From the NCBI RefSeq assembly GCF_002797755.1, contig NZ_PGFI01000011.1, forward strand, positions 1,860,001-1,924,000: DNA of 64,000 nt, in the 5' to 3' direction. The translations under genes and the position numbers were made by a program. Under the pieces are notes generated by a model. It searched no databases. It saw only the letters and a program-made list of their open reading frames with translations, and had not been told where the DNA came from. Every line of letters begins with the position of its first letter. Within the stretch, counting starts at the first letter, position 1. The stretch comes from Brevirhabdus pacifica. Its GTDB lineage: Bacteria > Pseudomonadota > Alphaproteobacteria > Rhodobacterales > Rhodobacteraceae. Shown one piece after another: positions 16,519 through 56,894 of this stretch.

Positions 16519-16585
16519 GTTCCGCTCCTGGCCGCTGTCCGGTTCTTGCGCCCGGCGCCTACCGCATATTGGTAGGCCATTAACG

Positions 16586-16596
16586 ATATCAGATAT
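16586..16596. promoter_or_regulatory. Palindrome ATATC-A-GATAT before marR
   Basis: A perfect 11-base palindrome, 68 bases upstream of the MarR start codon in an AT-rich spacer. It could be an autoregulatory site, but it does not match the stronger inverted repeat at 16656-16677. Confidence 0.35.
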
Positions 16597-16655
16597 GAAT
16601 AAGTCAACATACGCTGACGGAATAGAGATTTTTGACCGTTGACGACTCGCGCTAC

Positions 16656-16677
16656 TATTGTTATTCGCTTAACAATA
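16656..16677. promoter_or_regulatory. 22-base inverted repeat, candidate MarR operator
   Basis: TATTGTTA (16656-16663), six bases, TAACAATA (16670-16677): arms are perfect reverse complements, with the size and symmetry of a MarR operator. It lies 51 bases before the oxygenase ATG, in the region expected for its promoter. Confidence 0.7.
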
Positions 16678-16728
16678 TCTGCGGGGCGACCCACGTGCGC
16701 CGACACAGCCAAGAGAAGGAAGCCTGAG

Positions 16729-18003
16729 ATGCTGACCCAAGAACAGAACGACATGCTCACTCGCGTTGGTGCCGGAACGCCCGCGGGGGAGCTGATGCGG
16801 CGCTACTGGCACCCCATCGCCGCGATGGAGGACCTGAAGGAAAAATGGTCCATCCCGGTGCGCATCCTGGGCGAGGATCTGGTGCTGTTTCGTGACCGCC
16901 AGGGCCGTCTTGGCCTGCTGGATCGCCACTGTCCCCACCGCCGCGCATCGCTTGTGAACGGTATCCCCACCCAGGAGGGCATCCGCTGCCCCTACCACGG
17001 CTGGGCCTTCGGACATGACGGGCAGTGCCTGGAACAGCCGAACGAGCCCGAAGGCTCCTCCTTCTGCCAGAAGATCAAGACCAAGGCCTACAAGGTCGAG
17101 GAGCTGGGCGGCATGATCTGGGCCTACATGGGGCCCGACCCCGCCCCCCTGCTGCCGCGCGTCGACGGCTTTGTCGAGCCTGGCACCGTCCGGATGATGG
17201 GTCGGACCGTCATCCCGATCAACTGGCTCCAGGCCATGGAAAACTCGCTCGACCCGATCCATACCGAGTGGCTGCACGGCCACCTCTACGAGTTCGTGAA
17301 AGAGCAGGAGAACGTGAAGGTCGCGATCAGCGCGCCCCACGCCAAGATCGCTTTCAAGGAATTCGAATACGGCATCACCAAGCACCGGCTGCTGGTGGGC
17401 CAGTCCGAGGAATCCGACGACTGGAAGGTCGGCCACCCGATCATGTTCCCCAACACCCTGTCGGTCGGAAACGGCGACGAGAACTCGCGCTACTACGCGT
17501 TCCAGATCCGTGTCCCCATGGATGACGAGAACACGCTTCACATTTGGTATACGGCCTACGTGCCGCCCGCGGACGCCAAGGTGCCCGCCCACCTGACCGA
17601 GAAGCTTCACACCTACGAGGTGCCGATCTACGACGAGAACGGCGAGTTCATCGTCGACAATGTCGACGGCCAGGACATGATGGCCTGGATTTCCCAGGGC
17701 CGGATCACCGACCGCACCGCCGAGAACCTCGGCTCGACCGACCAGGGCGTCGCCGCCTACCGCCGGATGCTGCGCCGCGAGATCAAGAAGGTCGAGGCGG
17801 GCGAGGATCCGATGTGCGTCTTCCGCGATCCCGCCGAGAACGAGCGGATCGACCTGCCCAACGAGAAGAAGAAGCACCACAACAGCGACGGCATGAAAAG
17901 CTGGCTGATGCGGACCCATATGCGCTTCTCGCCGATCCTCGACGACCTTGTCGAAATCTACGAGCCCAGCAAGGAAGAGCTTCTGACCGCCGACGCGGTC
18001 TGA
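16729..18003 (+). CDS. Rieske non-haem iron ring-hydroxylating oxygenase (phthalate 4,5-dioxygenase-like)
   Basis: A 424-residue oxygenase subunit. The Rieske [2Fe-2S] ligands are Cys68-X-His70 and Cys87-X2-His90 (CPH...CPYH). The mononuclear iron site is in NSLDPIHTEWLHG with Asp175 bridging and His178, His183 as ligands. Length and the opening MLTQEQNDMLTRVG resemble the oxygenase of phthalate 4,5-dioxygenase (Pht3/OphA2 group), which adds O2 to an aromatic acid to give a cis-dihydrodiol. Start is ATG 16729, with AAGGA upstream. The electron donor is probably the PDR-type reductase at 20499. There is no small beta subunit, as expected for this homomultimeric class. Vanillate-type O-demethylation is an alternative activity. 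Confidence 0.87.
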   Translation: MLTQEQNDMLTRVGAGTPAGELMRRYWHPIAAMEDLKEKWSIPVRILGEDLVLFRDRQGRLGLLDRHCPHRRASLVNGIPTQEGIRCPYHGWAFGHDGQCLEQPNEPEGSSFCQKIKTKAYKVEELGGMIWAYMGPDPAPLLPRVDGFVEPGTVRMMGRTVIPINWLQAMENSLDPIHTEWLHGHLYEFVKEQENVKVAISAPHAKIAFKEFEYGITKHRLLVGQSEESDDWKVGHPIMFPNTLSVGNGDENSRYYAFQIRVPMDDENTLHIWYTAYVPPADAKVPAHLTEKLHTYEVPIYDENGEFIVDNVDGQDMMAWISQGRITDRTAENLGSTDQGVAAYRRMLRREIKKVEAGEDPMCVFRDPAENERIDLPNEKKKHHNSDGMKSWLMRTHMRFSPILDDLVEIYEPSKEELLTADAV

Positions 18004-18004
18004 T

Positions 18005-18074
18005 CCCCGCCCTTGCGGGGCAGAGGCATCCCCTGCCCCGACCTGAAGATCCCGCCGGCATCATAGCCGGCGGG
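18005..18074 (+). other. Three stem-loops between oxygenase and dehydrogenase genes
   Basis: CCCCGC/GCGGGG (18005-18020), GGGGCAG/CTGCCCC (18017-18039, partly exclusive with the first), and CCCGCCGGC/GCCGGCGGG with a 6-base loop (18051-18074). None is followed by a T run. They probably attenuate read-through or protect the upstream message, favouring more oxygenase than the downstream enzymes. Confidence 0.55.
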
Positions 18075-18103
18075 AAATCCCCTCCCCTCCGAAAGTGCGC
18101 GCA

Positions 18104-19231
18104 ATGATCCGATTGGGACTGATAGGCCTAGGGGCGGCAGCCCAGGCGTTCCTGACGCCCCTGAGGCGGCACGGGGAATTTGCCGTCGCCGCCGCCTGCG
18201 ATCCCCGCCCCGAGGCGCGCGACGATTTCACCGCCGCCTTCGACCGGCCCGCCTTCGACACGATCGCCGGGCTTCTGGGCGCGGGCCTGTGCGACGCGAT
18301 CTACATCGGCACCCCGACCGAGCTGCACCACGAGCATGCGATGGCCGCGCTTGAGGCGGGAATGCATGTTCTGCTGGAAAAACCCATGTGCATCCGCGCC
18401 GAGGATGGCTTTGCCCTGGCCCGCGCCGCCGAGGCGCGGGGCCTGACGCTGGTCGTCGGACATTCGCACAGCCACGATCTGCCCATTCGCACCATGCGCG
18501 AAATCATCCGCTCGGGCCGTCTGGGTGCGGTCCGGATGGTCAACAGCTGGTGCTACACCGATTGGGTCTACCGCCCCCGCCGGCCCGAAGAGCTGCGCCC
18601 CGAACTGGGCGGCGGCGTGACCTATCGCCAAGGCGCGCATCAGTTCGACATTCTGCGAAGCCTGTGCGGCGACCGGATCGTTTCGGTCACCGGTCACGCC
18701 TTCGATTTCGACCCCGACCGCAGCACGATCGGCGCCCACAGCGCGACGCTGAGCTTTGCCAACGGCGCCGTCGGAACTGCCGTCTACAGCGGCTATGGCC
18801 ATTTCGGCTCCGCCGACCTGACGGGAAATGTGGGCGAATGGGGCTACCCGGCCACGCCATTGCGCCGGGCCTCCGGCGCTGCGGCACGCCCCGAAGATGA
18901 GCTGAAGGCAAAACGCGCCCGCGCCAAGTCAGCCATCGGCAGCGACGCGCCCCACCAGCCCCATTTCGGCCTGACCCTGGTGAGTTGCGAGAAGGGCGAC
19001 ATGCGCCAATCACCCGACGGGTTGCTGATCTACACGGCGGACGGATGCGAGGAAGTGCCCCTCGACAACAGCCGCACCCCGCGGGAGCTGGTGCTTGACG
19101 AATTCGCGGCGGCAATCGGCGGCGAGCCACCCCTGCACGATGGCTTCTGGGGGGCCTCCATCGTCTCCGTCTGCGACGCGGTGCTTGAATCCGCCCGCAC
19201 CGGCCGGCCCGTCGCCCTGCCCCAAACCTGA
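18104..19231 (+). CDS. Gfo/Idh/MocA-family dehydrogenase (phthalate dihydrodiol dehydrogenase-like)
   Basis: A 375-residue NAD(P)-dependent oxidoreductase. The N-terminal Rossmann fold begins IRLGLIGLGAAAQAF, and the family EKP motif is present (LLEKPMC, about residue 92). The C-terminal half is the alpha/beta substrate domain with GGGVTYRQGAHQFDIL, containing the likely catalytic His. Pht4, which oxidises the cis-dihydrodiol of phthalate to 4,5-dihydroxyphthalate, belongs to this family. Its position right after the oxygenase supports that role. ATG 18104 is used; a GTG nine bases earlier is possible. Gfo/Idh enzymes act on many sugars too, so the assignment rests on context. Confidence 0.82.
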   Translation: MIRLGLIGLGAAAQAFLTPLRRHGEFAVAAACDPRPEARDDFTAAFDRPAFDTIAGLLGAGLCDAIYIGTPTELHHEHAMAALEAGMHVLLEKPMCIRAEDGFALARAAEARGLTLVVGHSHSHDLPIRTMREIIRSGRLGAVRMVNSWCYTDWVYRPRRPEELRPELGGGVTYRQGAHQFDILRSLCGDRIVSVTGHAFDFDPDRSTIGAHSATLSFANGAVGTAVYSGYGHFGSADLTGNVGEWGYPATPLRRASGAAARPEDELKAKRARAKSAIGSDAPHQPHFGLTLVSCEKGDMRQSPDGLLIYTADGCEEVPLDNSRTPRELVLDEFAAAIGGEPPLHDGFWGASIVSVCDAVLESARTGRPVALPQT

Positions 19232-19255
19232 ACGAATTTCCTGGAGCGTCCAAAG

Positions 19256-19663
19256 ATGAAGATTACGGCCACGACGAACGACACGGCGACCGGTGCCACG
19301 CTTTCGGTCACCCTGGGCGACGAGACCCTGAACGGGACCTGCGATGTCGCGGAGATCGACGCGGCAATCGCCGAGCTGGTCGCCCTTCGGGCACAGATGA
19401 GCCCGGCACGAAAGGTCGAGCATACCCCCGGAGAGACGCAGGTCTACGAATGCGACAACCTGCTGTGGGATACCCTGCCCGATCCGTCCCGCCGGGGCGT
19501 GATGATCGCTCATTACCACGGCGGCCTGGGGTGGGTGACGGTGCGCCTGTCGCGCGCCCAGCTTGAGGATCTGGTGACGGACATCCAGTTCTCCCTCGCC
19601 GATCTTGCACGGCTGCCGGGGTTCCAGAACGCGCGTGCGCTGGCGGTGGACAACGCGGACTGA
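19256..19663 (+). CDS. Uncharacterised protein in the aromatic operon
   Basis: A 135-residue soluble protein that I do not recognise. It has no signal peptide, membrane segment or cysteine cluster; the first third is rich in Thr and Asp, and the C-terminal half contains HYHGGLGWVTVRLSRAQLEDL. A ribosome binding site (TGGAG) is found 10 bases before ATG 19256, and the gene follows the dehydrogenase by 24 bases, so it is co-transcribed with the ring-oxidation genes. An accessory role for the oxygenase or decarboxylase is possible but not shown. Confidence 0.7.
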   Translation: MKITATTNDTATGATLSVTLGDETLNGTCDVAEIDAAIAELVALRAQMSPARKVEHTPGETQVYECDNLLWDTLPDPSRRGVMIAHYHGGLGWVTVRLSRAQLEDLVTDIQFSLADLARLPGFQNARALAVDNAD

Positions 19664-19763
19664 TCCGGGGTTGGGCGGTCGGGACACGGACGCCGCCGTC
19701 TGAAGAACGAGACTTACGGTTGCCCCCATGAAGAGCGGCAGCCGGCACATCAAGGGGAGCTGA

Positions 19764-20456
19764 ATGATGAACTATCCGGAATTGCGGGAAAAACTGGTCC
19801 AGGCCGGGCGGGTGCTGTGTGCCAATGGTCAGGATGACCTGACCCGGGGACATGTCTCGGCACGGCTGCCGGACAACCCGGATCTTTTCCTCATGAAGCC
19901 GCATTCGGTGGGGCTCGATGAACTCACTCCCGAGTGTCTGCTGACCATCGACCTCGACGGCAATGTCGTCGCAGGCGACGGCCGCCGCCATAGCGAGGCG
20001 TTCATCCACACCGAGGTTTTCCGCGCCCGGCCCGACGTGGGGGCGATCCTGCACACCCACCCCACCTATTGCGTCGCCCTGACCGCGGCCGGCACGCCCC
20101 TGCGCCCGGCAAGCCAACCGGCGGCCCTGTTCCACCAGATGCTTGGCCTCTACGACGATACGATCAACCTGATCCGCACCCCCGAGATGGGACAGGGCGT
20201 TGCCCGCGCCCTTGGCGACATGCGTGCCGTCCTGCTCAAGCATCATGGCATCGTCTGCACGGGCGAGACGGTCGAGGAGGCCGTGATCGGGGCGATCATG
20301 CTGGAAAACGCCGCGATGATTCAGCTTCTTGCCGACGCCAGCGGCAACCGCGCCGAGGCGTTCTCCGACGAGGACATCGCCAAGCTTCGCGATGCCCTGG
20401 GCAAGCAGGAACAGTTCACCATCAATTTCGACTACCTGGTCCGCCGCCTGGCCTGA
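19764..20456 (+). CDS. Class II aldolase/adducin-family protein, possible dihydroxyphthalate decarboxylase
   Basis: A 230-residue metal-dependent class II aldolase/adducin domain. The metal ligands are seen as HTHP (His97, His99) and the later HHG (about residue 160); GHVSARLP near residue 30 is the usual phosphate-side loop. In actinobacterial phthalate pathways the 3,4-dihydroxyphthalate decarboxylase PhtC belongs to this family, which fits its place between the dehydrogenase and reductase. A sugar-phosphate aldolase would have no obvious role here. Two adjacent ATGs (19764, 19767) follow GGGGAG; the second has the better spacing. Confidence 0.8.
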   Translation: MMNYPELREKLVQAGRVLCANGQDDLTRGHVSARLPDNPDLFLMKPHSVGLDELTPECLLTIDLDGNVVAGDGRRHSEAFIHTEVFRARPDVGAILHTHPTYCVALTAAGTPLRPASQPAALFHQMLGLYDDTINLIRTPEMGQGVARALGDMRAVLLKHHGIVCTGETVEEAVIGAIMLENAAMIQLLADASGNRAEAFSDEDIAKLRDALGKQEQFTINFDYLVRRLA

Positions 20457-20498
20457 GCCCGGCAAGCGGATCGACAAACTGACAGGAAAGGTGCCCGG

Positions 20499-21455
20499 AT
20501 GGAGATGCGACAACTGAAGGTCGGAAGCACGCGCATCGTGGCCAGCGACATACACGAATATGTGCTGGTCGATCCCGATGGGCGCGCGCTGCCCCCCTTC
20601 ACCCCCGGCGCGCATGTCCATGTCTCGGTTCCCGCGGGCGGCACGCGGCAATATTCACTGCTCAACGACCCGGCCGAGCGCGACGCCTACCGGATCGCGA
20701 TCAAGCGTGAGAACGAGGGGCAAGGCGGCTCACGCAGCTTTGTCGATACGGTCTCGGCCGGCGACATGGTCGAGGTATCGGCACCGGCCAACGACTTCCA
20801 GCTTGGACAGGATGGCGAGCGGGTCATCCTCATCGCGGGGGGCATTGGCATCACGCCCATCCTCAGCATGGCGCGATACCTGCACCGCACCGGCGAGCGG
20901 CCTTTCCACATGTATTACCTGACGCGCGACCCCGCGCAGACCGCCTATCTGGACGAGATCACGTCGGCCCCGTTCGCAAAGAACGTGACCATCCATCACG
21001 ACATGGGCGATCCCGCCCGGTCACTGGACCTTCAGGCCCTTCTGGCCGAGCAGGACGGCGCGGTCCTTTACTGCTGCGGGCCGACGGGTCTTCTGCACGC
21101 CGTGCGCGCGGCCGCCTCCCACTGGGGCCGGGGCGATGTGCGGTTCGAGGATTTCGGCACCACCCCCGCCCCCCAGGCCGAGGATGGCGAGGGTTTCCAG
21201 GTCCGCGTGGCAGGCCACGAGGGGGCCTTCCGCGTGCCGGCGGACAAATCCATCCTCGAGGTGCTGAATGAAGCGGGGCTTGAAATGCCAAGCTCCTGCG
21301 AGGCGGGGACATGCGGAACCTGCCGGATGCGCCTGATCGAGGGCGAGGCCGATCACCGCGACCTGGTGCTTTTCGACGACGAGATGGAGGACAGCATCAT
21401 CATCTGCTGCTCGCGCGCGAAAAGCCCCGAGATCACCATCGGATTTCCGGAATAA
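20499..21455 (+). CDS. Phthalate dioxygenase reductase-type ferredoxin/flavin reductase
   Basis: A 318-residue class IA oxygenase reductase, almost the length of phthalate dioxygenase reductase (PDR). Domains in order: FMN-binding barrel (residues 1-105, with RQYSLLND), NADH-binding domain (about 106-225, GGIGITPILSM and CCGPTGLLHAVR), and C-terminal plant-type [2Fe-2S] ferredoxin with Cys267, Cys272, Cys275 and Cys304 (CX4CX2CX28C). It would pass electrons from NADH to the Rieske oxygenase at 16729. It is the last gene of the ring-oxidation operon and ends 13 bases from the convergent kinase gene. Confidence 0.92.
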   Translation: MEMRQLKVGSTRIVASDIHEYVLVDPDGRALPPFTPGAHVHVSVPAGGTRQYSLLNDPAERDAYRIAIKRENEGQGGSRSFVDTVSAGDMVEVSAPANDFQLGQDGERVILIAGGIGITPILSMARYLHRTGERPFHMYYLTRDPAQTAYLDEITSAPFAKNVTIHHDMGDPARSLDLQALLAEQDGAVLYCCGPTGLLHAVRAAASHWGRGDVRFEDFGTTPAPQAEDGEGFQVRVAGHEGAFRVPADKSILEVLNEAGLEMPSSCEAGTCGTCRMRLIEGEADHRDLVLFDDEMEDSIIICCSRAKSPEITIGFPE

Positions 21456-21468
21456 TCCGGGCGCCCGC

Positions 21469-22494
21469 TCAGACTTTCGCCGTTTCTCCCGCCTCCTTGG
21501 CGATCACCTCCAGCCCGCGGATGGCGAAACGCTCGGCCAGGGGGGCCAGGGTCGCGGCCTCGTCCGAGGTGGCATTGCCGGCCCGCGCCCTGTCCGCGAT
21601 GCCGACGAAGATCACCGCGAAACGGAACAAGGCGAAGGCCATGTGAAACGCCCCAAGGGGCGCGGTCGGGCGGGCATGTGCATGATATTCCGCCTCGAAT
21701 TCGGTCCGGGTCGGAACGCCCGCCCCCTCCCAGCCGCTGCCCATCAGCCCGCCGTATTCATCCGGGGATGTCAGCCAGGGCATGACGCAGAAGCCCAAGT
21801 CCGCAAGCGGATGCCCAAGTGTCGAAAGCTCCCAGTCGAGCACACCGATCACCCGCGGCTCGGTGGGGTGGTAGATCATGTTGCCTAGACGAAAATCGCC
21901 ATGCGCAATCGAGACCGCGCCGTCATCTTCCGGCATGTGCGACGTCAGCCAGTCGAGCAGCCGGTCCAGCGCCGGGACCGCGCCCCCCGGGCGTTCGCGA
22001 TACTGGCGGCCCCAGCGCCTGATCTGACGCTCGAAATAATTGCCGGGCTTGCCGAAATCGCCCAGGCCCACCGCCTCGGGCCGGACCGCGTGCAGCCTCG
22101 CCAGCGTGCGCGCCATGTCGAGGTAGATCTCCCGCCGCTCCGCGGGGGCCAGACCCGGCAAGGCGCAATCGGAAAAGACCCGACCTTCCAGCCGCTCCAT
22201 CAGGTAGAAGGGCGTGCCGAGAATGGCCGCGTCCTCCTCCAGCCACAGGGCCCTGGGCACGGGAACCTCGCTGCCCTCCAGGGCGCGCAGGACCCGGAAC
22301 TCACGCTCGATCGCGTGGGCGCCGGGCAGGATCGGACCCGCGGGTTTCTTGCGCAGGACCATCCGCGCCCGGCCCCAGTCCACATACCAGGTCGGGTTGG
22401 ACTGGCCGCCGCCGATCCGCTCGGTCCCCAGGTCATTCCCGGGCATCCTGTCTGCAAGCCATGTCTTCAGCGCGGCCAGGTCCAGATCGCTCAT
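21469..22494 (-). CDS. APH-fold phosphotransferase (LvaA/ACAD10-kinase type)
   Basis: A 341-residue protein kinase-like phosphotransferase. The nucleotide region GGGQSNPTW, the catalytic loop HGDFRLGN and the metal-binding GVLDWELSTLG are all intact. Such genes are named after aminoglycoside kinases, but those paired with an acyl-CoA dehydrogenase belong to the ACAD10/11 N-domain and LvaA group, which phosphorylate the 4-hydroxyl of 4-hydroxyacyl-CoA. Its ATG (22494) overlaps the stop of the acyl-CoA dehydrogenase gene by 4 bases, so the two products are coupled. It is the last gene of the GntR-controlled operon. Antibiotic resistance is unlikely. Confidence 0.85.
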   Translation of the reverse strand: MSDLDLAALKTWLADRMPGNDLGTERIGGGQSNPTWYVDWGRARMVLRKKPAGPILPGAHAIEREFRVLRALEGSEVPVPRALWLEEDAAILGTPFYLMERLEGRVFSDCALPGLAPAERREIYLDMARTLARLHAVRPEAVGLGDFGKPGNYFERQIRRWGRQYRERPGGAVPALDRLLDWLTSHMPEDDGAVSIAHGDFRLGNMIYHPTEPRVIGVLDWELSTLGHPLADLGFCVMPWLTSPDEYGGLMGSGWEGAGVPTRTEFEAEYHAHARPTAPLGAFHMAFALFRFAVIFVGIADRARAGNATSDEAATLAPLAERFAIRGLEVIAKEAGETAKV

Positions 22495-23720
22495 TCCGCC
22501 GCGACCCCTTTGCGGACCTCTTGGGTCTGCCAGGTCCAGAAGTCGCGCCCCTCCTCGGCCAGGAAGCGGTGCAGCACCATCTGGTGCACCTCGTCCGCGC
22601 CATCGACCAGCCGGGCCTGCCGGGCATAGCGGTAGATCCATTCAAGCACCGTGTCGCGGCTGTAGCCGCGCGCGCCGTTAACCTGGATCGCCACGTCGGC
22701 GGCCTTGTGCAGCAGGTTGGCGACGTGGATCTTGGCCATCGAGACCTCCTTGCGGGCGAAGCTGCCCTGATCCAGCGCCCAGGCGGCCTTCATCACCAGC
22801 AGGCGGCCAATCTCGATCCCCATGGCCAGATCGCCCATCTTGATCTGGATGCTCTCCCGGTCCGACAGGCGGATGCCGAACCCGTGCCGGTTCTGGGCGT
22901 ATTCCTGCGCGATCTCGGTGCAGCGCTTGGCCAGTCCCAGCCAGCGCATGCAATGGGTCAGCCGCGCCGGGCCAAGGCGCATCTGCGTGACCTTCAGGCC
23001 CAGCCCCTCGCCCAGCAGCACCCGGTCGGCGGGCAGCCGCATGTCCTGATAGACCAGCTCGCAATGACCGCCATGCTCCTCGGGGCCCATGATCGGAATG
23101 CGCCGGTCGATGTGCCAGCCCGGATCCTCGCGGTGGTGGAGAAAGGCCGTCAGCCCCCGGCGCGGATCGTCCGATGTGCGCGCCATCAGGATGAAATGCG
23201 ATGCGTCCTCTGCCCCGGTGATGAACCATTTGCGCCCCCGGATGACGTAGGACTCCCCGTCCTTCGTCGCGGTGGTCAGCATCATCCCCGGGTCCGATCC
23301 GCCGCCCGGATGCGGCTCGGTCATGGCAAAGGCCGAGCGGACCTTGCCCTGCACGATGGGTTGCAGCCAACGCTCTTTCTGTGCGTCGGTCGCGGCCTGT
23401 TCCAGGACCATCATGTTGCCGTCGTCCGGCGCGGCCGAGTTAAAGACGACAGGCCCGAAGATCGAGCGGTTCATCTCCTCGTAGCAGGCGGCCATGCCGA
23501 CGCGGCCCAGCTCCTGACCGCCCGTCTCGCGCCTGAGCTGGAGGCACCAGAGCCCTTCCGCGCGGGCCTTTTCGCGCAGCATCTCAAGCGGTTCTGCAGC
23601 GATGTTGTCATGGGCGTCCCAGTTGGAACGATCCTCTTCGACCGGCAGAACCTCCTCCTCGACAAAACGGGCGATGCGGGCGCGGAAATCCTCGACGCGG
23701 GGGGAAAGCGTGAAATCCAT
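22491..23720 (-). CDS. Acyl-CoA dehydrogenase (ACAD10/11-like, LvaC-like)
   Basis: A 409-residue flavoprotein of acyl-CoA dehydrogenase fold: N-terminal helical domain, central beta domain (SAFAMTEPHPGGGSDP, WFITGAEDA) and C-terminal helices. Where classical enzymes have the catalytic glutamate in a YEGT motif, this protein has RLVDGADEVHQM, the form found in ACAD10/11 and relatives. Those work with an APH-like kinase to eliminate phosphate from 4-phosphoacyl-CoA. The kinase gene overlaps its stop codon. Ordinary alpha,beta-dehydrogenation of an unusual acyl-CoA remains an alternative. Confidence 0.88.
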   Translation of the reverse strand: MDFTLSPRVEDFRARIARFVEEEVLPVEEDRSNWDAHDNIAAEPLEMLREKARAEGLWCLQLRRETGGQELGRVGMAACYEEMNRSIFGPVVFNSAAPDDGNMMVLEQAATDAQKERWLQPIVQGKVRSAFAMTEPHPGGGSDPGMMLTTATKDGESYVIRGRKWFITGAEDASHFILMARTSDDPRRGLTAFLHHREDPGWHIDRRIPIMGPEEHGGHCELVYQDMRLPADRVLLGEGLGLKVTQMRLGPARLTHCMRWLGLAKRCTEIAQEYAQNRHGFGIRLSDRESIQIKMGDLAMGIEIGRLLVMKAAWALDQGSFARKEVSMAKIHVANLLHKAADVAIQVNGARGYSRDTVLEWIYRYARQARLVDGADEVHQMVLHRFLAEEGRDFWTWQTQEVRKGVAAE

Positions 23721-23723
23721 GAC

Positions 23724-23882
23724 TCAGACCCCTTCCAGCACAAGGCTCGCACCCGCGTCCGCACCCGGCCTGCCGGTCAGGGTGACGGTGACGCCCGGCT
23801 TGAGGTCCGGGTTGCCGTCTGCGGACCGGACCGACCCGGCGCGCGCCCCGTGGGTGCAGGAGGTGGCGTAGATGGTTTTCAT
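23724..23882 (-). CDS. Small 52-residue ORF in the acyl-CoA operon
   Basis: A short frame starting MKTIYATSCTHGARAG and ending SLVLEGV. AAGGA lies eight bases before its ATG and it fits exactly between quinone oxidoreductase (12 bases) and acyl-CoA dehydrogenase (3 bases) without wasting sequence. I do not recognise it; the first 25 residues faintly resemble the opening strands of OsmC/Ohr proteins, so it might be a truncated relic. In levulinate operons a small protein (LvaB) partners the kinase, but no similarity is claimed. Confidence 0.55.
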   Translation of the reverse strand: MKTIYATSCTHGARAGSVRSADGNPDLKPGVTVTLTGRPGADAGASLVLEGV

Positions 23883-23894
23883 GGCAGGGATCCT

Positions 23895-24872
23895 TCAGGG
23901 GATGAGAATGGTGGTGCCCGTGGTCGCGCGGCTTTCAAGGGCGTCATGCGCCTCGGCGGCGCGGGTCAGGGCGAACCGGTTGGGCGCCTCTGGCCGCAGC
24001 GTGCCGTCGGAAAGGGCCGCGAACAGGGCCCCTGCCCGGCGCTGTAGATCCTGCGTGTGCGCGATGAAGTGGAAAAGCACCGGGCGCGTGGCCATGAAAG
24101 AACCCTTGGCCAGGTCCGAGAAGGCGAAATCCGTGATCGGCCCCGAGGCCTGTCCGAAATTCACGAAGGTTCCGTGCGGGCGCAGGCAGTCCAGCGATCC
24201 GCGCCAGGTGTCGGCGCCGACGCTGTCGTAGACTGCGTGAACCAGGCGCCCCTCGGTTAATTCCTTGACGCGGGCGACAAAATCCTCGGCGCGGTAGTCG
24301 ATTACCGCGTCATACCCATGCGCCATCGCCAGCGCGACCTTCTCGGGACCGCCCGCCGTGCCGATGGCGTGCACGCCCTTGGCCCGCAGCCATTGGCCCA
24401 GCAACAGGCCCACGCCCCCGGCGGCGGCATGGACCAGCACCGTATCGCCCCGGGCGACCGGATAGCTGTCGTGGATCAGGTAATGGGCCGTCAGCCCCTT
24501 CAGGATCATGCCCGCCGCCATCTCGGTCGAGATCCCGTCGGGAAGCTTCAGCAGCCGGTCGGCGGCGATCACCCGGGCACTGGCATAGGCACCCAGCGGA
24601 TGGGTGTAGCCGACCCGGTCGCCGGGGCGCAGGTCGCTGACCCCCGGGCCCACCCGCTCGACCACGCCGGCCGCTTCCGAGCCGGGGACAAGGTCCCGGG
24701 GCGTCGCCCAAGGGTAGGCGCCGCTGCGGTGGTAGATGTCGAGGAAGTTCAGCCCGATCGCCTCATGGCGGACCAGCACCTCGCCCGCCCCGGGCGGATC
24801 GAGCGTGATCTCCCGGCGTTCAAGAACCTCCGAGCCGCCGGGCTCGCGGGCGATGATGACGTAATCCTGCAT
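23895..24872 (-). CDS. NADPH:quinone oxidoreductase-type medium-chain reductase
   Basis: A 325-residue zinc-free MDR-family enzyme of the QorA type. It shows the GLNFLDIYHRSGAYP motif of quinone reductases, the PGSEAAGVVERVGPGV segment and the Rossmann motif HAAAGGVGLLLGQWLRAKG. It probably reduces a quinone or an enone/enoyl thioester intermediate with NADPH. A GGAGGAACC site before ATG 24872 sets the start; the frame extends upstream but overlaps the SDR gene. Ten bases separate it from the SDR stop. Confidence 0.88.
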   Translation of the reverse strand: MQDYVIIAREPGGSEVLERREITLDPPGAGEVLVRHEAIGLNFLDIYHRSGAYPWATPRDLVPGSEAAGVVERVGPGVSDLRPGDRVGYTHPLGAYASARVIAADRLLKLPDGISTEMAAGMILKGLTAHYLIHDSYPVARGDTVLVHAAAGGVGLLLGQWLRAKGVHAIGTAGGPEKVALAMAHGYDAVIDYRAEDFVARVKELTEGRLVHAVYDSVGADTWRGSLDCLRPHGTFVNFGQASGPITDFAFSDLAKGSFMATRPVLFHFIAHTQDLQRRAGALFAALSDGTLRPEAPNRFALTRAAEAHDALESRATTGTTILIP

Positions 24873-24882
24873 GGTTCCTCCG

Positions 24883-25686
24883 CTAAAGCCCGCTGACCAG
24901 GTGCCCCCCATCGACCACCAGCGTCGTACCAGTGATATACCTGCCCGCCTCGGATGCCAGCAGCAACAGCGCGCCGTCCAGCTCCGCGGGCTGGCCGAGG
25001 CGGCGCATCGGGATGCGCCGGACCTGCGCCTTGCCCGCGTCGGAGGCGAAGAAATCGCGGTTGAGGTCGGTCTCAACGTAGCCCGGGCAAAGGGCGTTGG
25101 CACGGATACCGTGGCGCGCCCATTCCAGCGCCTGCTGCTTGGTCAGTTGAATCAGCGCCGCCTTGGAAGTGGCGTAAGCGGCCACCCCGGCCCCCTGCCT
25201 CAACCCTAGGATCGAGGCCACGTTGATGACGCAACCGCCCTGCCCCGCCGCGATCAGCCGCCGCGCCGCGTGGCTGGCCACCCGCCGCGCCCCGTCGAGG
25301 TTGACGGTCATCAGGCCGGCCCAATCCTCGTCCGGCTGATCGACCAGGCTGCCCGGCGTGGCAACGCCCGAGTTGTTCACCACCAGATCCACGGGACCAC
25401 CGAACGCCTCCTCGGCCCTGTCGAAGGCGGCGGCGATGGTTTCGGGCCGGGCCAGGTCGAGGGAGGTGGCGACGGCCTGCCCGCCCGTCCCGACGATCCG
25501 GTCCCGCACCCCCTCCATCGGGCCCGTCCGGCGCGCCGCCAGTAGGACCGAGGCGCCGGCACTGGCCAGCACCTCGGCAAAGCGCCCGCCCAGCGCGCCC
25601 GAGGCGCCCGTGACCAGCGCGCGCCGCCCGGCCAAGGAGAACCCGGCCGTGACGCCGGGCAGGCCCGGGGGCGTCGCTGGCGTCAT
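24883..25686 (-). CDS. Short-chain dehydrogenase/reductase
   Basis: A 267-residue classical SDR. The cofactor motif TGASGALG (about residue 27), NNSG, the catalytic Ser in [11 protein letters not shown] and the Tyr/Lys of YATSK are intact, and the C terminus [11 protein letters not shown] is typical. In this operon it could interconvert a hydroxyacyl-CoA and an oxoacyl-CoA, the role of LvaD. Its start overlaps the stop of the TPP-enzyme gene by 4 bases. Confidence 0.9.
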
Positions 25687-27410
25687 TCAAGGCCCCGGCG
25701 CTTGCGCTCCGCATCGTCCCAATAGATCAGCGGCTGGTAATCGGGCACGAAGCCCAGCCCCTTCTTGGCATCCGACGAGACCGCGTCCTGCGACGTGACG
25801 ACATCGATCACGGCGGGCGCGCTTTCCAGCGCCCGGGCGATCGCGCCGGGCAGGTCCGCCGGGTTCTCGACCCGTTCCCCGTAGAGGCCGAGGGCCTGCG
25901 CCATCCCCGCATAATCGGAATGGCGCAGCAGCGTGCCCACGACCCTTCCGCCGTAATTGTCGGACTGGTCGAACCGCTCGATGTTCCAGGCGGCGTTGTT
26001 GGACACGATGATCACCGGCTTGGCGCCCTGGCGCACGGCGGTGTCGATCTCCATCGCGTTCAGCCCGTAGGCCCCGTCGCCCGTGACGCAGATCACCTGG
26101 CGGTCGGGAAAGGCCAGGCTGGCGGCGTTGGCGTAAGGCACACCGACGCCCAGGCAGCCGAAGGCGCCCGCATCAAGGTAAGTGCCGGCCTCCAGCCCGA
26201 CGCGCGCGAAGCTCAGAAGATCGCCGCCGTCGGCCACGGCGATGTAATCGGGCGCAGCCACGTCCTTCAGCGCGTCGAAGATCGCCATCGGGTGGATCTT
26301 GCCGTCGCTGCCGGTCTGCGGCGTCTCGCGGTTGCCGCCCGAGGCACGGGCCACGTGCTTGGAACGGACCCCCTCGGCCCATTCCCGGTCCAGCGCCGGT
26401 GCGCCGATCTGCTGCCCGGCCTTGGCGATGGCCTCAAGCGCCAGGGCGGGTGTCGCCAGCAGCTCGGGCGCGCCGCGCCGGTTGTCGATCAGCTCGGACG
26501 CGGTGTCCGAGATACGGATGAACCTGGCGTTCGGGAAGACGGCCGGCGAGCCATAGCCAAGCTGATAGTCCAGGCGGCGGCCGATGGTGATGACCAGATC
26601 GGCATCCTGCATGGCCTGCCCGCGCATCGCCCCCACGAAAGAGGCGTGATCGCCCGAAACCAGGCCGCGCGATTCCTGCGTGTCGAGGTAAAGCGCGCCC
26701 GAGGCATCGAGCAGCCCGTTCAGCGCCTCGGCCGCGCCGTTGGCGCCCCTGCCCGTCACCACCACGGGGCGTTTGGCCGACCAGAGCGCCTGCGCCGCCT
26801 CGGTCACCGCCGCCGGATCGGGCGGCATGACGCGCGGCGCCTTGGGCCGCATCCAGTCGTCCAGAACCAGGTTCTCGGCGACATGCTCGCGCAGCACGTC
26901 GGTGGGGATCTCCAGGTAGACCGGACCGGGCTCTCCCCCGTCGCCCATGGCGCGCGCCACGGCCTCGTCCAGTTCGCGGATCACCTGCTCGGCCACCCGT
27001 GCCGTGCGCGACTGGCGCGCGACGGGTCGGATGATGTCCACGTGGGGGATGTCCTGAAGCGGCCCCATGTTCGCCTGCGGCCGCGACGTGCAGCCCCCGA
27101 TCAGCAAAAGCGGGATCCGCGCCAGCGAGGCGTTGGCGATGGCGGTCACCGTGTTGGTCACGCCGGGACCGGCGGTCACCATGGCGACGCCGAAGCCGCC
27201 GGTCAGCTCCGCGTGGGCGTGGGCCATGTGCACCGCCGCGCATTCGTGGCGCACGTCGACGATGCGAATGCCGCGCTGTGCGGCGAAATCCCAGATCGGC
27301 TGGATATGCCCGCCCTGCAGGCCGAAGATGCGGTCGACCCCGCGCGCCTGGAGGAATTTCGCGATCCAGGCGGCGACGCTGAGTTCGTCACTGTTGAGGT
27401 CTTGGGTCAT
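25683..27410 (-). CDS. Thiamine-pyrophosphate-dependent enzyme (acetolactate synthase-like), first copy
   Basis: A 575-residue TPP enzyme with PYR, central and PP domains. The activating glutamate is in [19 protein letters not shown] (about residue 52), the glycine segment VTAGPGVTN follows, and the ThDP/Mg motif runs from GDGAYG to SNN in the C-terminal third. This fold covers acetolactate synthase, oxalyl-CoA decarboxylase, 2-hydroxyacyl-CoA lyase and related carboligases. Placement between an acyl-CoA ligase and an SDR argues for cleavage of an acyl-CoA or oxoacid rather than amino-acid synthesis. No small regulatory subunit is nearby. Overlaps of 4 bases on both sides show tight coupling. 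Confidence 0.85.
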
Positions 27411-28999
27411 TCGGCTTCTGCTCCTGCTGTCTGCTTGGTGTCGAAAGCCCCCGAGAGGAGCTTTTCCTTGAGAATTCCGTGCTGGATCTTGCCCGTCGCC
27501 GTGCGCGGAATGTCATCGGCGTCGACGAAGGTGACGCCGCGCGGGCGCTTGAACCGGGCGATGCCGGTGCAGCTTGCGCCGATGAGGTCGGCCGCACCGA
27601 TCCGCGCGTCCTTCTGCAGGACGACGACGGCGTGGACCCGCTCTCCCCACTTGTCGTCGGGCAGGCCGACCACGGCCACGTCACGCACCTCCTCGGCGGC
27701 ACCGATGGCGGCCTCGACCTCGGCGGGGTAGATGTTCTCGCCGCCCGAAATGATCATGTTCTTCTTGCGATCGATCAGCTTGATGAAGCCGTTCTCGTCC
27801 CTCAGCGCCATGTCCCCGACGGTGCAATAATCGCCCCGGAACGCCTCGGCGGTCTTTTCGGGCAGGTTCCAGTAGCCGTCGAACGTGTAGGGGGTGCAGT
27901 GGAAAAGCTCTCCGGGCTGGCCGTCGGGCACCTCGTTGCCGTCATCGTCCAGCAGGCGGATCGGGGCGGTGCCCACGCATTCCCGCCCGACGGTGCCGAG
28001 GTTGGTGAACTGCTCGTCGGGGTGCAGCATCGTCACCCACCCTCCCTCGGAGGAGCCGTACAGCTCGAAGAGGCCCGAGTTCGGGAACATCTCCATCACC
28101 GCCCGCTTGGTGTCGGCCCGTGCCGGCGCCGAGGAGATCATCAGCTTGCTCATCCGCCCCAGTTCGCGCGCGCGGCCGTCGGCCTTCGCCTGTTCCAGCA
28201 TCATCGAATAATGGGTCGGCACCAGCGACGTGAAGGTGGCGCCCGAGCGTTCCATCACGTCCAGCGCCTCCTCGGGGTCGAAACTGGCGCGCGAATAGAT
28301 CGAGGTGACGCCGCCCCGGTAGCTGAAGGACGAGAAGAAGTTCAGCGAATTGGCGTGGCACATGGGCATGACCAGCAGCGCGTCGTCGCGCCCGCCGATC
28401 GACAGCTCGATGTCGGTGACAAACGCGATCAGCGCCTGGCCCCGGTGGCTTCGGATCACGCCCTTGGGCTTGCCGGTGGTGCCCGAGGTATACATCAGCG
28501 CCCAAGGGTCGGTGTCGGCGATTGCCATATCAGGGGCCGAGGACGCGGCCTGCTGAAGCAAATCCTCGTAGTCTCGCCAGCCGGCGGCCCGCCCCCCGAA
28601 AAGGACATAGCGCGACGGGTCGATCCCCAGCGCGTCGCGCACTTCCTCGATCTCCTCATGAAGGCCGTGCTGGGCCAGGATCGCGGTGGCGCCGCAATCC
28701 TCGATGATGAACCGCATCTCCTGCGGGCTGAGCCGGAAGTTGAGGGGCACCGCGATGATGCCGGTCTTGGCTGTGGCGGCATAGATCTCGGCCCATTCCA
28801 GCCGGTTGTAGGCCAGAAGGGCAACGCGGTCGCCCTTGCCCAGGCCCATACCCAGCAGGGCGTTGCCAAGCCGCCGCGCGCGCTCGTTCCACTGGCCAAA
28901 GCTCATCGAGCGTTCAAGATCCCGCGCACCCAGTTCCTCGGGCCGCAACCGGGCAAACCCGTCCAGCATCTGCCCGAAGGTCAACAAGGACTTCGTCAT
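27407..28999 (-). CDS. AMP-forming acyl-CoA ligase, head of the GntR-controlled operon
   Basis: A 530-residue class I adenylate-forming enzyme activating a carboxylate with ATP and CoA. The P-loop-like [11 protein letters not shown], the YGSSEGG motif and the C-terminal lysine in TATGKIQHG are all present. First gene of the reverse-strand operon, following the GntR-family regulator with a 237-base spacer that contains a perfect 15-base palindrome. Its substrate sets the pathway entry: by analogy with LvaE it might be a 4-oxo or 4-hydroxy acid, but the binding pocket cannot be judged here. Confidence 0.9.
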
Positions 29000-29085
29000 T
29001 CCTGCCCCTTTCCCACGTTCCGATCGCTTGCTGTCACCTGGAACCGGATCCGATCACATCCCGCCACGGGTCGCATCCGGCGTTC

Positions 29086-29100
29086 TGAATTCCGAATTCA
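29086..29100. promoter_or_regulatory. Perfect 15-base palindrome, candidate GntR operator before the acyl-CoA operon
   Basis: TGAATTC-C-GAATTCA is fully symmetric around 29093 and lies 87 bases upstream of the ligase start. The core TGAATTCA recurs upstream of the GntR gene itself. Confidence 0.7.
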
Positions 29101-29236
29101 CAATCTCGCCGGAAGGGATTCGAGTCAAGCGATGGCTGTTGGGCGCAATTGTCCGTTTTAGTCTCGGCACTGGCATAGCCCACGCGGGCCTATAGCCCCT
29201 GTCGGGGTGTCGCGCGGCCCGCATGCAGCGGCGCGA

Positions 29237-29980
29237 TCAGCGCCGGGCTGGGGCCGAGTTGCGCTGTGCCGAAGCGTCCGGCGAGGCGTTGAAAAGGTGG
29301 TCCGTCTGGCCCGAAGCCATGGCGGCGCTCAGGGCCTCTTCGGCGCCGGTCACGTGCTCGGCCGCGCGGGCCACGGCGCCGTCCGCATCCCCGGCCACCA
29401 GCGCATCGAGGATCTCGTGATGCTGCGCCCAGACAAGGGGGCCGCGCTTGGCGTGCAGCAGGACACCGATCATCACCCGGCGCAGAAACAGCCAATGGGC
29501 CTCGGCCGTGGGCTTGATGAGCGGGTTGCCGGACATGTCGTAGATGAAGGTGTGAAAATCCACGTCGTGGCGCACGGCCTCGGCCACGCCGCCCGATTTC
29601 TCGGCCCCGTTTCCGGCCGCCAGGATCGCATCGCCCTCGCGGCGTAGGCGCGCCTTGAACCCCTGGTCCGCGCGGGACCTTTCGGCGACCAGGCGGGCCG
29701 CCAACTGGTCCAGCACCAGCCGGATCTGGTAATGATGCTGCATGCCGGCGCGGTCGATCGGCGCCACGTAAAGCCCCCGTCCCCCGCTTTCGACCACCAG
29801 CCCATCGTTCTTGAGAAGCAGCATCGCCTGCTGGATCGGCTGGCGCGAGACGCCGAGGGCGGCGGCCAGCTCTTCCTGAACAAGATGGGTGCCCGGTGCC
29901 AGGATGCAGTCGCAGATGTCTTCGCGCACGGAGTGATAGACCTGTTCGGTCCGGCTGGGGATGCTCGACAATTTCTGCAC
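29237..29980 (-). CDS. GntR-family (FCD-type) transcriptional regulator
   Basis: A 247-residue GntR protein: N-terminal winged helix (YHSVREDICDCILAPG, then LAAALGVSRQPIQQAMLLL) and an all-helical FCD effector domain with a metal-site pattern (HDVDFHTFIYDMSGN and a later AEHV). The start is GTG 29980, with GGAG eight bases before it. It precedes the acyl-CoA operon on the same strand and shares a TGAATTC-type operator with it, so it is the likely local controller and autoregulator. The inducer is probably an acid or CoA ester from the pathway. Confidence 0.88.
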   Translation of the reverse strand: MQKLSSIPSRTEQVYHSVREDICDCILAPGTHLVQEELAAALGVSRQPIQQAMLLLKNDGLVVESGGRGLYVAPIDRAGMQHHYQIRLVLDQLAARLVAERSRADQGFKARLRREGDAILAAGNGAEKSGGVAEAVRHDVDFHTFIYDMSGNPLIKPTAEAHWLFLRRVMIGVLLHAKRGPLVWAQHHEILDALVAGDADGAVARAAEHVTGAEEALSAAMASGQTDHLFNASPDASAQRNSAPARR

Positions 29981-30005
29981 TTGGGTACTCCGAATCGCGT
30001 GAACT

Positions 30006-30015
30006 CTGAATTCAG
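30006..30015. promoter_or_regulatory. CTGAATTCAG palindrome before the GntR gene
   Basis: A 10-base perfect palindrome sharing the TGAATTCA core with the 29086-29100 operator, 26 bases before the GTG start of the GntR gene. It is likely an autoregulatory site. Confidence 0.6.
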
Positions 30016-30107
30016 CAGTCGGAATGGACGCTAGTCGGAGCGCCGCGTAATGTCACCACGGTTGCATCCGGGGGGACCTCGACCAGCGGCAGGCGAGAGT
30101 GGGAAAT

Positions 30108-30134
30108 GGCAGGGCAAGCCGCAAGGCCCCTGCC
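30108..30134 (-). terminator. Possible terminator after hemN (second copy)
   Basis: GGCAGGG (30108-30114) pairs with CCCTGCC (30128-30134) across a 13-base loop, directly after the hemN stop on the reverse strand. No clear T run follows. Confidence 0.35.
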
Positions 30135-30135
30135 C

Positions 30136-31476
30136 TCAGACCGCGCGGCTGAACATGGTCTCGCTGGTCGAAAGATCCTCGATGCCGGCGGCGATGGGCC
30201 GGGCATAGGCGAAGGAGGCCAGCCGGATACGCCCCTGGTCTTCGACCGCGGCGCCGGGCAGGTCCTTCAGCACCCGCTGTGCCCGGGCAAGGATAGGCGC
30301 GGGGTCCAGCCCCTGGGCGCGGCACTGGGCGTCGATGTCGGCCGCGCCTTCGCACATCAGCCCCTCGATGATGGCGCCGATTGCGCGCTCCTCGGGGCCA
30401 AGGCGGAAGCCCCTGGCGGTGGGAAGGCTCTCCCGGCCCAGCATCTCCTGCCAGGCGCCGGTGGCGGCGACGTTTTGGGCATACCCCTCCGGGTAGCGCG
30501 AAATGGCCGATGCGCCCATGCCGATCAGCACCCTTGCCGTGTCGGTCGTGTAGCCCTGGAAATTGCGCCGCAGGGTGCCGGCGCGCGCGGCGTTGGCCAT
30601 GGAATCCCCGGGCAAGGCGTAGTGATCGATCCCGATCGCCACATATCCCGCGCCGGTCAGCCGCTCACGCGCCAGTGCCTCCAGGTCCAGACGCTCCTCG
30701 GCGTCCGGCAGATGCTGTTCGCAGATCAGGTTCTGGCGCCGGGCCATCCAGGGCACGTGGGCATAGCCGTAAAGGGCGATGCGGTCCGGGCCCAGGTCGA
30801 GCACCTGGTCCACCGTCGCCCCGAGCTTGGCCGGGCTCTGGTGCGGCAATCCGAAGAGCAGGTCCATGTTGACGCTGCCGATCCCCGCCTCGCGCAGCAG
30901 GCGCATCGCCCGCTGGGTCACCTCGAAATCCTGGAACCTTCCGATGGCGCGCTGAACCACGGGGTCGAAATCCTGAACCCCCAGCGATCCCCGCGTGAGC
31001 CCCATGGACAGCAGCGCCTCCAGACGCTCGGGCCCGAACTCGCAAGGGTCGATCTCGACCGAGACCTCGCGGGCCTCCGCAATGGGAAAGGCGCGCAGCA
31101 TCTCGCCCAGGCGCGTCAGAAGTGCCGGCGACAGAAGGGTCGGCGTGCCGCCCCCGAGATGAAGCTGCGAGACCCCGACCCCGTCGGGCAGGCTTGCGCG
31201 CACCAGCGCGATCTCGGTCTCGAGATGGTCGAGGTAGCGGATCAGCGGCCCCTCGCTGCGGGTGCCCTGGGTGCGGCAGGCGCAGAACCAGCAGAGCCTG
31301 CGGCAGAAGGGCAGATGAACGTAAAGCGAGACCGCATCCCCCGCCGGAACCCGCGCCAGCCATTCGGCGGTGTCGGCGGGGCCGATCGCCGGTCCGAAAC
31401 GGTTCGCCGGGGGGTAGCTGGTGTATCTGGGGGCGCGAGAACGGGCCAGCGCGCGGCGAAGGTCATCCTGTGTCAT
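30136..31476 (-). CDS. hemN: Oxygen-independent coproporphyrinogen III dehydrogenase (second copy)
   Basis: A 446-residue radical-SAM HemN with cluster cysteines Cys58, Cys62 and Cys65 (CRRLCWFC), the APRYTSYPPANRF opening and LHLGGGTPTLL. It makes protoporphyrinogen IX for haem and bacteriochlorophyll-type synthesis without oxygen. It is divergent from fnrL with an FNR box between, as in Rhodobacter. The box centre lies exactly 41.5 bases before the ATG and no Shine-Dalgarno sequence is seen, so a leaderless FNR-activated transcript is likely. It is clearly distinct in sequence from the copy at 3850. Confidence 0.92.
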   Translation of the reverse strand: MTQDDLRRALARSRAPRYTSYPPANRFGPAIGPADTAEWLARVPAGDAVSLYVHLPFCRRLCWFCACRTQGTRSEGPLIRYLDHLETEIALVRASLPDGVGVSQLHLGGGTPTLLSPALLTRLGEMLRAFPIAEAREVSVEIDPCEFGPERLEALLSMGLTRGSLGVQDFDPVVQRAIGRFQDFEVTQRAMRLLREAGIGSVNMDLLFGLPHQSPAKLGATVDQVLDLGPDRIALYGYAHVPWMARRQNLICEQHLPDAEERLDLEALARERLTGAGYVAIGIDHYALPGDSMANAARAGTLRRNFQGYTTDTARVLIGMGASAISRYPEGYAQNVAATGAWQEMLGRESLPTARGFRLGPEERAIGAIIEGLMCEGAADIDAQCRAQGLDPAPILARAQRVLKDLPGAAVEDQGRIRLASFAYARPIAAGIEDLSTSETMFSRAV

Positions 31477-56887: not shown

Positions 56888-56894
56888 CGCGCCC

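Follow-up and report, generated by a model that had tools for sequence, protein, structure and literature searches.

The 2-hydroxyacyl-CoA lyase AcHACL of Actinomycetospora chiangmaiensis is encoded in a gene cluster that, in the available portions of the literature, includes a ligase gene, the lyase gene and a GntR gene (PMC7176365). This type of lyase has been characterised on 2-hydroxyisobutyrate (2-HIBA) (PMC7176365, PMC8760513), and the same portions of the literature centre on actinobacteria and this substrate (PMC7176365, PMC8760513, PMC13327070). Such lyases are wanted for one-carbon chemistry. The lva operon of Pseudomonas putida and P. citronellolis encodes a kinase, an acyl-CoA dehydrogenase (ACAD), an SDR and a CoA ligase under the sigma54-dependent regulator LvaR, with no lvaB in the P. 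citronellolis cluster as far as the available text describes it (PMC6692424). In mammals, ACAD10 and ACAD11 contain a kinase and a dehydrogenase of related kinds, and the available text adds that 4-hydroxy acids in the liver are also processed by an arm with an alpha-oxidation step (PMC12440821, PMC11342911). The catabolism of 1,4-butanediol by P. putida involves a PQQ alcohol dehydrogenase and a 4-hydroxy acid, for which beta-oxidation as far as glycolyl-CoA, itself a 2-hydroxyacyl-CoA, has been proposed; the accessible part of that report proposes no lyase or kinase step (PMC7090098), unlike the operon described here.

We analysed a 64,000-nucleotide stretch of Brevirhabdus pacifica DNA (the window) containing seven genes on the minus strand in which two known kinds of system are newly combined. 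We found no description of a lyase, an ACAD and a kinase in one operon when the open-licence literature was searched by title and start of abstract. In their order along the minus strand the features are:

29237..29980, minus strand: GntR/FCD-type transcriptional regulator (Pfam FCD and GntR)
27407..28999, minus strand: AMP-forming acyl-CoA ligase, not of the HCL family (module A; Pfam AMP-binding)
25683..27410, minus strand: TPP enzyme, a 2-hydroxyacyl-CoA lyase (module A; NF058623, 1026.2 bits; 7pt1)
24883..25686, minus strand: SDR, LvaD-like by position (module B; Pfam adh_short_C2)
23895..24872, minus strand: QorA-type zinc-family reductase (PRK10754, 312 bits, below cut-off)
23724..23882, minus strand: 52-codon remnant resembling both ends of an ohr/osmC gene
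22491..23720, minus strand: ACAD10/11-type acyl-CoA dehydrogenase, probable 4-phosphoacyl-CoA eliminase (module B)
21469..22494, minus strand: APH-fold kinase of ACAD10/11 type, probable 4-hydroxyacyl-CoA kinase (module B; Pfam APH)

Overlaps of 4 bases join the ligase to the TPP gene, the TPP gene to the SDR gene (the border between modules A and B) and the ACAD to the kinase gene, while 10 bases separate the SDR and QorA-type genes. The kinase start is best placed at 22494; a longer ORF from 22641 is also listed. The first-pass annotation of this DNA had described this gene set, its 4-base overlaps and short gaps, and one motif each in the dehydrogenase and the kinase, all of which are present. 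The GntR gene lies 237 bases from the ligase gene on the same strand, and this position suggests that the GntR/FCD protein is the probable regulator of the operon; it is the nearest regulator, whereas the lva operon has the sigma54-type LvaR (PMC6692424, available portions). A promoter and terminator scan of positions 21200-30200 gave no sigma-70-like promoter, which is weak evidence for such an organism. No beta-oxidation gene lies inside the operon.

On balance, we favour the view that this operon serves the breakdown of short hydroxy acids and combines two modules that can also occur separately, with one shared CoA ligase. The protein families, their key residues, the layout and the recurrence of module A joined to module B can be read from the DNA directly; the individual reactions are assigned by homology. 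In module A, the ligase would make a 2-hydroxyacyl-CoA that the lyase, with thiamine diphosphate, would split into formyl-CoA and a carbonyl product, aldehyde or ketone, with one carbon less. In module B, a 4-hydroxyacyl-CoA would first receive a phosphate from the kinase on its 4-hydroxyl; the ACAD10/11-type enzyme would then use its flavin to expel this phosphate, giving a 2-enoyl-CoA for beta-oxidation, and the SDR would interconvert 4-keto and 4-hydroxy forms. More tentatively, both modules may serve one substrate family through the shared ligase. Their likeliest meeting point would be a single beta-oxidation round that turns a 4-hydroxyacyl-CoA into a 2-hydroxyacyl-CoA, to be removed by the lyase.

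The TPP enzyme belongs to the AcHACL type of 2-hydroxyacyl-CoA lyases. Its score against NCBIfam NF058623 is well above the family cut-off of 600 bits, the next-best family reached 357 bits, and it matched 7pt1 with an E value of 4.5e-209. Residues L118, Q119, I477 and E478 align with AcHACL L127, Q128, I492 and E493, so that the equivalents of the catalytic Glu493, of Gln128 and of the size-limiting Leu127 and Ile492 are all kept (compare PMC7176365, PMC8760513 and PMC13327070, available portions). The catalytic and size-limiting residues are invariant or nearly so across 92 aligned rows, and the C-terminal stretch matches the C-terminal lid of AcHACL. The predicted substrate probably has an acyl part of C5 or less, a limit carried over from A. 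chiangmaiensis, and the genome encodes a formate dehydrogenase that could take the C1 product. Two other candidates were rejected because their scores fell far short of that for NF058623: acetolactate synthase at 357 bits and oxalyl-CoA decarboxylase at 230 bits. We also considered cyclohexane-1,2-dione hydrolase, since cleavage of a ring by a TPP enzyme would fit well with the dehydrogenases, and rejected it at only 103 bits to 2pgn. The TPP enzyme had earlier been placed outside any known route. This is not supported, since ligase, lyase and GntR gene together are the layout of the published lyase cluster (PMC7176365, available portions). The lyase assignment is in line with the accompanying suggestion of cleavage of a 2-hydroxylated intermediate.

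As in the A. chiangmaiensis cluster, the ligase gene adjoins the lyase gene and a GntR gene is nearby, but the ligase is of another family. Compared with the HCL of the Methylibium petroleiphilum 2-HIBA cluster, it gave only a 26-residue match (E 6e-4), which is no real similarity, and it lies outside the HCL family. Its best NCBIfam match, PRK06187, scored 417.6 bits, below the cut-off of 476, and neither Pfam nor NCBIfam gave a specific name for the ligase, the SDR or the QorA-type protein. The operon also differs in that no mpdB or mpdC was seen, as these are described in the available text, and in its added SDR, ACAD, kinase and QorA-type genes (PMC7176365, PMC8760513, PMC13327070). A 2-hydroxyisobutyrate or 1,2-diol pathway, in which a diol would be oxidised to a tertiary 2-hydroxy acid whose CoA ester would then be split to yield formyl-CoA and a ketone such as acetone, with module B handling a later or side product, seems to us unlikely. 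It would suit the substrate on which this lyase type was characterised, and M. petroleiphilum PM1 has a relative of the lyase within its 2-HIBA mutase cluster. PQQ alcohol dehydrogenase genes occur in 8 of 83 mapped lyase loci, directly before the operon in L021, L023, L024, L027, L035 and L045, as well as near the operon in Azoarcus KH32C, and L090 has an aldehyde dehydrogenase and a GMC oxidoreductase. It is these clusters of relatives only that share the PQQ enzyme with P. putida 1,4-butanediol catabolism (PMC7090098, available portions). In the present genome no such dehydrogenase was found: a search with the L021 enzyme, run without a positive control, gave no match. The operon shows no diol dehydrogenase gene, the ligase is not that of the published clusters, and a diol pathway leaves the kinase and the phosphate-expelling enzyme without a reason.

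These two enzymes resemble ACAD10 and ACAD11. The dehydrogenase carries the conserved Pro, an upstream Arg, the HCMR motif and the catalytic Asp, as do the mammalian proteins (PMC12440821, PMC11342911, available portions). All four features are kept in 16 of 16 distinct ACAD copies near a lyase, and the set is absent from four other aligned ACADs of the same genome. The Asp motif had been noted as a departure from the usual catalytic Glu; because the available text predicts that Asp serves as the catalytic residue in LvaC and in ACAD10/11 (PMC12440821), we regard it as a mark of the family, in which it is the norm. Against solved structures, the operon ACAD scored 232 bits with both ACAD11 and 4hr3 and 167 with the next kind, and structure comparison gave the ACAD11 kind a narrow lead (Z 45.0, 44.4 and 43.2 versus 41.8). 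By homology, its probable role is to expel phosphate from a 4-phosphoacyl-CoA without net oxidation. The kinase motif HGDFRLGN retains the catalytic Asp and, five positions further, the Asn, and matches to 3dxp (308 bits) and to the ACAD11 kinase domain (230 bits) point to probable phosphorylation of a 4-hydroxyacyl-CoA. The SDR had no specific NCBIfam match over cut-off among the best 25 matches listed. Unlike the mammalian enzymes, the kinase and dehydrogenase are separate proteins here, with a lyase gene in the same operon.

As first proposed, the SDR, ACAD and kinase correspond in kind to LvaD, LvaC and LvaA, with the checkable key residues kept, and these three lva gene kinds stand together with a CoA ligase gene. 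Unlike the lva operon, the locus has the lyase and QorA-type genes added (PMC6692424, available portions). Levulinate as the substrate is better suited to a second set (ACAD, histidine phosphatase, APH, SDR; L123:13495-17332) about 44 kb away. Against mouse ACAD11, the ACAD of this second set reaches 395 bits and the operon ACAD 232, and the gene kinds of the set match the P. citronellolis lva cluster as available (PMC6692424). The operon ACAD falls in a subfamily far from the ACAD11-like copy of this genome, to which it is only 34% identical, and thus its substrate may differ. The operon has no LvaB-like small kinase partner, and a DUF6285 query of the whole genome, run without a positive control, gave no match; we take LvaB to be a DUF6285 protein. 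We consider it rather improbable that this is a plain levulinate or 4-hydroxyvalerate operon in which the lyase is a late addition of little consequence. The SDR, ACAD, kinase and ligase are all of lva kinds, and in 20 lyase-free neighbourhoods tblastn placed a kinase beside the ACAD in 18 and an SDR in 16. However, the second set is the nearer to ACAD11, the lyase gene overlaps both of its neighbours by 4 bases, and its linkage to the ACAD subfamily of the operon has changed repeatedly.

We examined this linkage among relatives. A ligase adjoins the lyase in 70 of 73 testable loci (80 gathered, mostly Alphaproteobacteria). In the census of 52 lyase loci (28 of the 80 were left out, having less than 5 kb downstream of the lyase), the ACAD is absent from 41 and joined to the lyase in 11, all 11 of which have an SDR. 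Conversely, the lyase is absent from 48 of 52 family genomes carrying an operon-type ACAD. Thus, the operon is a mosaic in which the ligase-lyase pair (A) and the SDR-dehydrogenase-kinase set (B) are each commoner apart. The earlier description of the added enzymes as locked in stands for this operon and fails for the module. ACAD and lyase co-occur in four family genomes versus 1.45 expected, which is marginal (P 0.044, relatedness ignored). On the ACAD tree the linkage needs six changes, five forced by starred branches; the absence of a lyase from 28 tree genomes comes from a search of the same 394 genomes. L123 and L009 form very long rows in the ACAD trees, and the lyase tree is a quick one with long branches. 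The 20 lyase-free neighbourhoods came from among the 48 ACAD-only genomes, for the most part those ranked highest by identity. Gene maps of relatives came from a simple ORF picker that sometimes took an antisense frame (the kinase in L170, L173 and L175), and therefore tblastn was used to repeat the counts for module B. L023 and L105 are one locus, as are L090 and L104, and each was counted once for residues.

Gene content varies among joined operons. The ACAD near the lyase in L009 is on the opposite strand, and G020 has an adjoining but broken set, with a partial lyase containing an internal TAG, an SDR in two pieces and 145 residues of the ACAD; it was excluded from the 52 ACAD-bearing genomes. 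The phthalate-like cluster next door was rejected as the cause, as it was not recognised in the mapped flanks of relatives, where matches to its genes were at most 37% identical. That the modules are metabolically unrelated, sharing a regulator or brought together by chance, is suggested by their being commoner alone and by the varied content of joined operons, but it is very unlikely given at least five linkage changes on the ACAD tree, the closeness of both modules on opposite strands in Azoarcus KH32C, the 4-base overlap across the A/B border and the failure to find, in joined loci, the second ligase type of lyase-free operons.

The lyase is thus a regular neighbour of a ligase in mostly alphaproteobacterial loci and is repeatedly joined to a putative 4-hydroxyacyl-CoA kinase/eliminase set. 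Beside a lyase, the same ACAD subfamily is served by either of two types of kinase, of which one is paired with a DUF6285 protein, and so the phosphorylation step seems to matter. The 11 joined loci offer a handle on the natural role of the lyase and on bacterial handling of gamma-hydroxy acids. A bolder extension of the two-module reading, which we put forward as a speculative possibility, is that the operon equips the cell fully for using short 4-hydroxy acids derived from gamma-lactones or 1,4-diols, with the two arms described for perfused liver brought together in one bacterial gene set. The kinase and ACAD10/11-type enzyme would form the phosphorylation arm. In the minor arm, which runs through beta-, alpha- and again beta-oxidation, the lyase would carry out the alpha-oxidation step by removing glycolyl-, lactyl- or 2-hydroxybutyryl-CoA. 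If true, it would show which kind of enzyme is able to perform that step, and it could also allow crotonyl-CoA to be made aerobically from 4-hydroxybutyryl-CoA, with no need for 4-hydroxybutyryl-CoA dehydratase, which is oxygen-sensitive.

The QorA-type gene is found in 5 of the 52 lyase loci with enough flank, and its product falls short of the PRK10754 cut-off of 348 bits. The 52-codon remnant in the gap between this gene and the ACAD gene is an open frame like the two ends of ohr/osmC, its C-terminal part matched by eye. Ohr is tied to peroxide stress. An intact ohr gene occupies the position of the remnant in loci L021 and L023.

Seven genes on the minus strand read as a single predicted operon, in the order GntR/FCD regulator, AMP-forming acyl-CoA ligase, TPP enzyme, SDR, QorA-type reductase, ACAD dehydrogenase, and APH-fold kinase. 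There are 4-base overlaps at three joints (ligase/TPP, TPP/SDR, and ACAD/kinase) and 10 bases between the SDR and QorA genes. The gap between QorA and ACAD holds a remnant that resembles both ends of an ohr/osmC gene, the likeness of the C-terminal part being judged by eye; a whole ohr/osmC gene occupies its place in two related loci, L021 and L023.

21469-22494, minus strand: APH-fold kinase
22491-23720, minus strand: ACAD
23724-23882, minus strand: 52-codon open remnant resembling ohr/osmC
25683-27410, minus strand: TPP enzyme

The first-pass annotation proposed a levulinate-like operon with an extra TPP enzyme. This was partly right, and the TPP enzyme can now be named as a 2-hydroxyacyl-CoA lyase: it scored 1026 bits against NCBIfam NF058623 (cut-off 600; runner-up family 357). 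Its closest solved relative is the Actinomycetospora chiangmaiensis lyase, 7pt1 (E 4.5e-209; next group E 2.9e-61). In an alignment of 92 lyase rows, 87 of which differ from one another, the residues matching L127, Q128, and E493 never vary, and the one matching I492 is kept in 91. A limit on substrate size is carried over from the A. chiangmaiensis enzyme and would apply by analogy.

Other TPP enzymes match this family below its cut-off. One (171 bits) lies in the window at 55154-62591 (minus strand), where it stands in a row with a thiolase and a pair of acyl-CoA ligases; these three neighbours were assigned by eye. Another (239 bits) lies elsewhere in the same genome (C4:217812-228077); about 6.6 kb away is a formate dehydrogenase alpha gene that passes its own cut-off.

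The top solved relatives of the ACAD are ACAD11 and 4hr3 (232 bits each; next kind 167). The suggested structural comparison with ACAD11 agreed, as the AlphaFold model (mean pLDDT 82) is nearest to 4hr3 and ACAD11 (Z 45.0, 44.4, and 43.2), a narrow lead over the next at 41.8. The Asp motif, which had been singled out as an oddity, is instead the family's own mark. A conserved Pro, R626, HCMR, and the catalytic Asp, linked in parts of PMC12440821 and PMC11342911 to substrate fit and phosphate elimination, are present in all 16 distinct lyase-proximal copies and are not retained in four other aligned ACADs of this genome. The kinase motif is intact as described, with the catalytic Asp and Asn retained.

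We compared 80 lyase loci, the best of 522 from one scan. Where the upstream sequence is long enough (73 loci), the ligase adjoins the lyase in 70; of 55 loci, 26 have a GntR gene no more than 4.5 kb away. Of the 52 with at least 5 kb downstream, 12 contain the SDR, 11 the ACAD, and 5 QorA. All 11 ACAD loci contain a kinase gene when both kinase types are counted; the first count was eight, and three (L027, L035, and L090) were found when a second type was added. This type is without the Arg beside the alpha-C Glu and retains the catalytic Asp and Asn. A DUF6285 gene accompanies it in L090 and L009; a match in L045 (27.8 bits) is slightly below the Pfam cut-off of 28.1. The occurrence of two kinase lineages alongside one ACAD subfamily argues that the phosphorylation step matters.

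Of 83 mapped lyase loci, 5 carry Ohr-family genes and 3 carry peroxiredoxin genes:

L021, 12528-12989: Ohr-family gene (TIGR03561, 137 bits, cut-off 89)
L023, 12528-12989: Ohr-family gene
L027, 14276-14743: Ohr-family or peroxiredoxin gene
L062, L074, and L092: Ohr-family or peroxiredoxin genes

Speculatively, these genes could perhaps defend against peroxy products formed from the TPP carbanion and oxygen.

Both module A (ligase and lyase) and module B (SDR, ACAD, and kinase) are commoner alone than joined. Among 394 genomes of this organism's family, the lyase is found in 11 and the ACAD subfamily, defined at no less than 63% identity, in 52. Four genomes have both (1.45 expected, P 0.044, relatedness ignored); the two genes adjoin in three and are about 98 kb apart in the fourth. 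An additional genome contains an adjoining set that is broken. Of 20 neighbourhoods inspected among the 48 lyase-free ACADs, 18 contain the kinase, 16 the SDR, and 9 another ligase. When one second-type ligase, taken from an operon that lacks the lyase, served as the query, 17 of the 18 joined loci gave a match, solely at the lyase-type ligase (identity 30-35%), and L108 gave none. On the ACAD tree (46 rows) lyase linkage requires six changes, five forced by starred branches; the lyase tree requires seven changes to account for the joined state, four of them forced. Gain and loss are indistinguishable on both. The operon is a well-formed, recurrent combination of two catabolic kinds that are already known; our literature searches, which covered open-licence papers, listed none whose title or opening abstract lines describe lyase, ACAD, and kinase in a single operon.

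Module A would convert a 2-hydroxy acid to its CoA ester and then split this ester, releasing formyl-CoA together with a carbonyl compound. Module B would remove a 4-hydroxyl by phosphorylation followed by flavin-assisted elimination. We infer the link between them, and by analogy its most natural source is the liver, where, according to sections of PMC12440821, 4-hydroxy acids follow a major arm of phosphorylation and a minor arm of beta-, alpha-, and beta-oxidation. One beta-oxidation round turns a 4-hydroxyacyl-CoA into a 2-hydroxyacyl-CoA, which a short-chain lyase would clear. Glycolyl-CoA is proposed as such a product, in part of PMC7090098, for 1,4-butanediol breakdown in P. putida. Eight of the 83 mapped lyase loci, including that of Azoarcus KH32C, carry PQQ alcohol dehydrogenase genes, which are consistent with an alcohol or diol source; one such enzyme used as a query, in a search without a positive control, found none in this genome. 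These genes also fit a 2-hydroxyisobutyrate/1,2-diol pathway, but the operon's ligase is not HCL, the ligase of published 2-hydroxyisobutyrate clusters. Separately, a lyase relative (51% identical; L010:8974-10734) lies within the 2-hydroxyisobutyrate mutase cluster of Methylibium petroleiphilum PM1, so that one plasmid carries the mutase and a possible lyase.

Next to the operon lies a cluster that we take to resemble the phthalate 4,5-dioxygenase pathway; the score of its aldolase for dihydroxyphthalate decarboxylase is 110 bits, where the cut-off is 200.

16081-21455: MarR regulator (minus strand), then Rieske oxygenase, Gfo/Idh, small protein, class II aldolase, and PDR-type reductase (plus strand)

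Should this organism use levulinate, a second set is the better candidate. It comprises ACAD, histidine phosphatase, APH, and SDR genes (L123:13495-17332, contig C1), the same gene kinds as the P. citronellolis levulinate cluster as given in part of PMC6692424. The set lies outside the window, about 9.5 kb beyond its end; the operon is 44 kb away. Its ACAD scored 395 bits against mouse ACAD11, which makes this set closer to ACAD11 than the operon is, and identity to the operon's proteins is 34% for ACAD, 43% for kinase, and 37% for SDR. Beside it are FadB-like, ligase, and further ACAD genes, named by eye.
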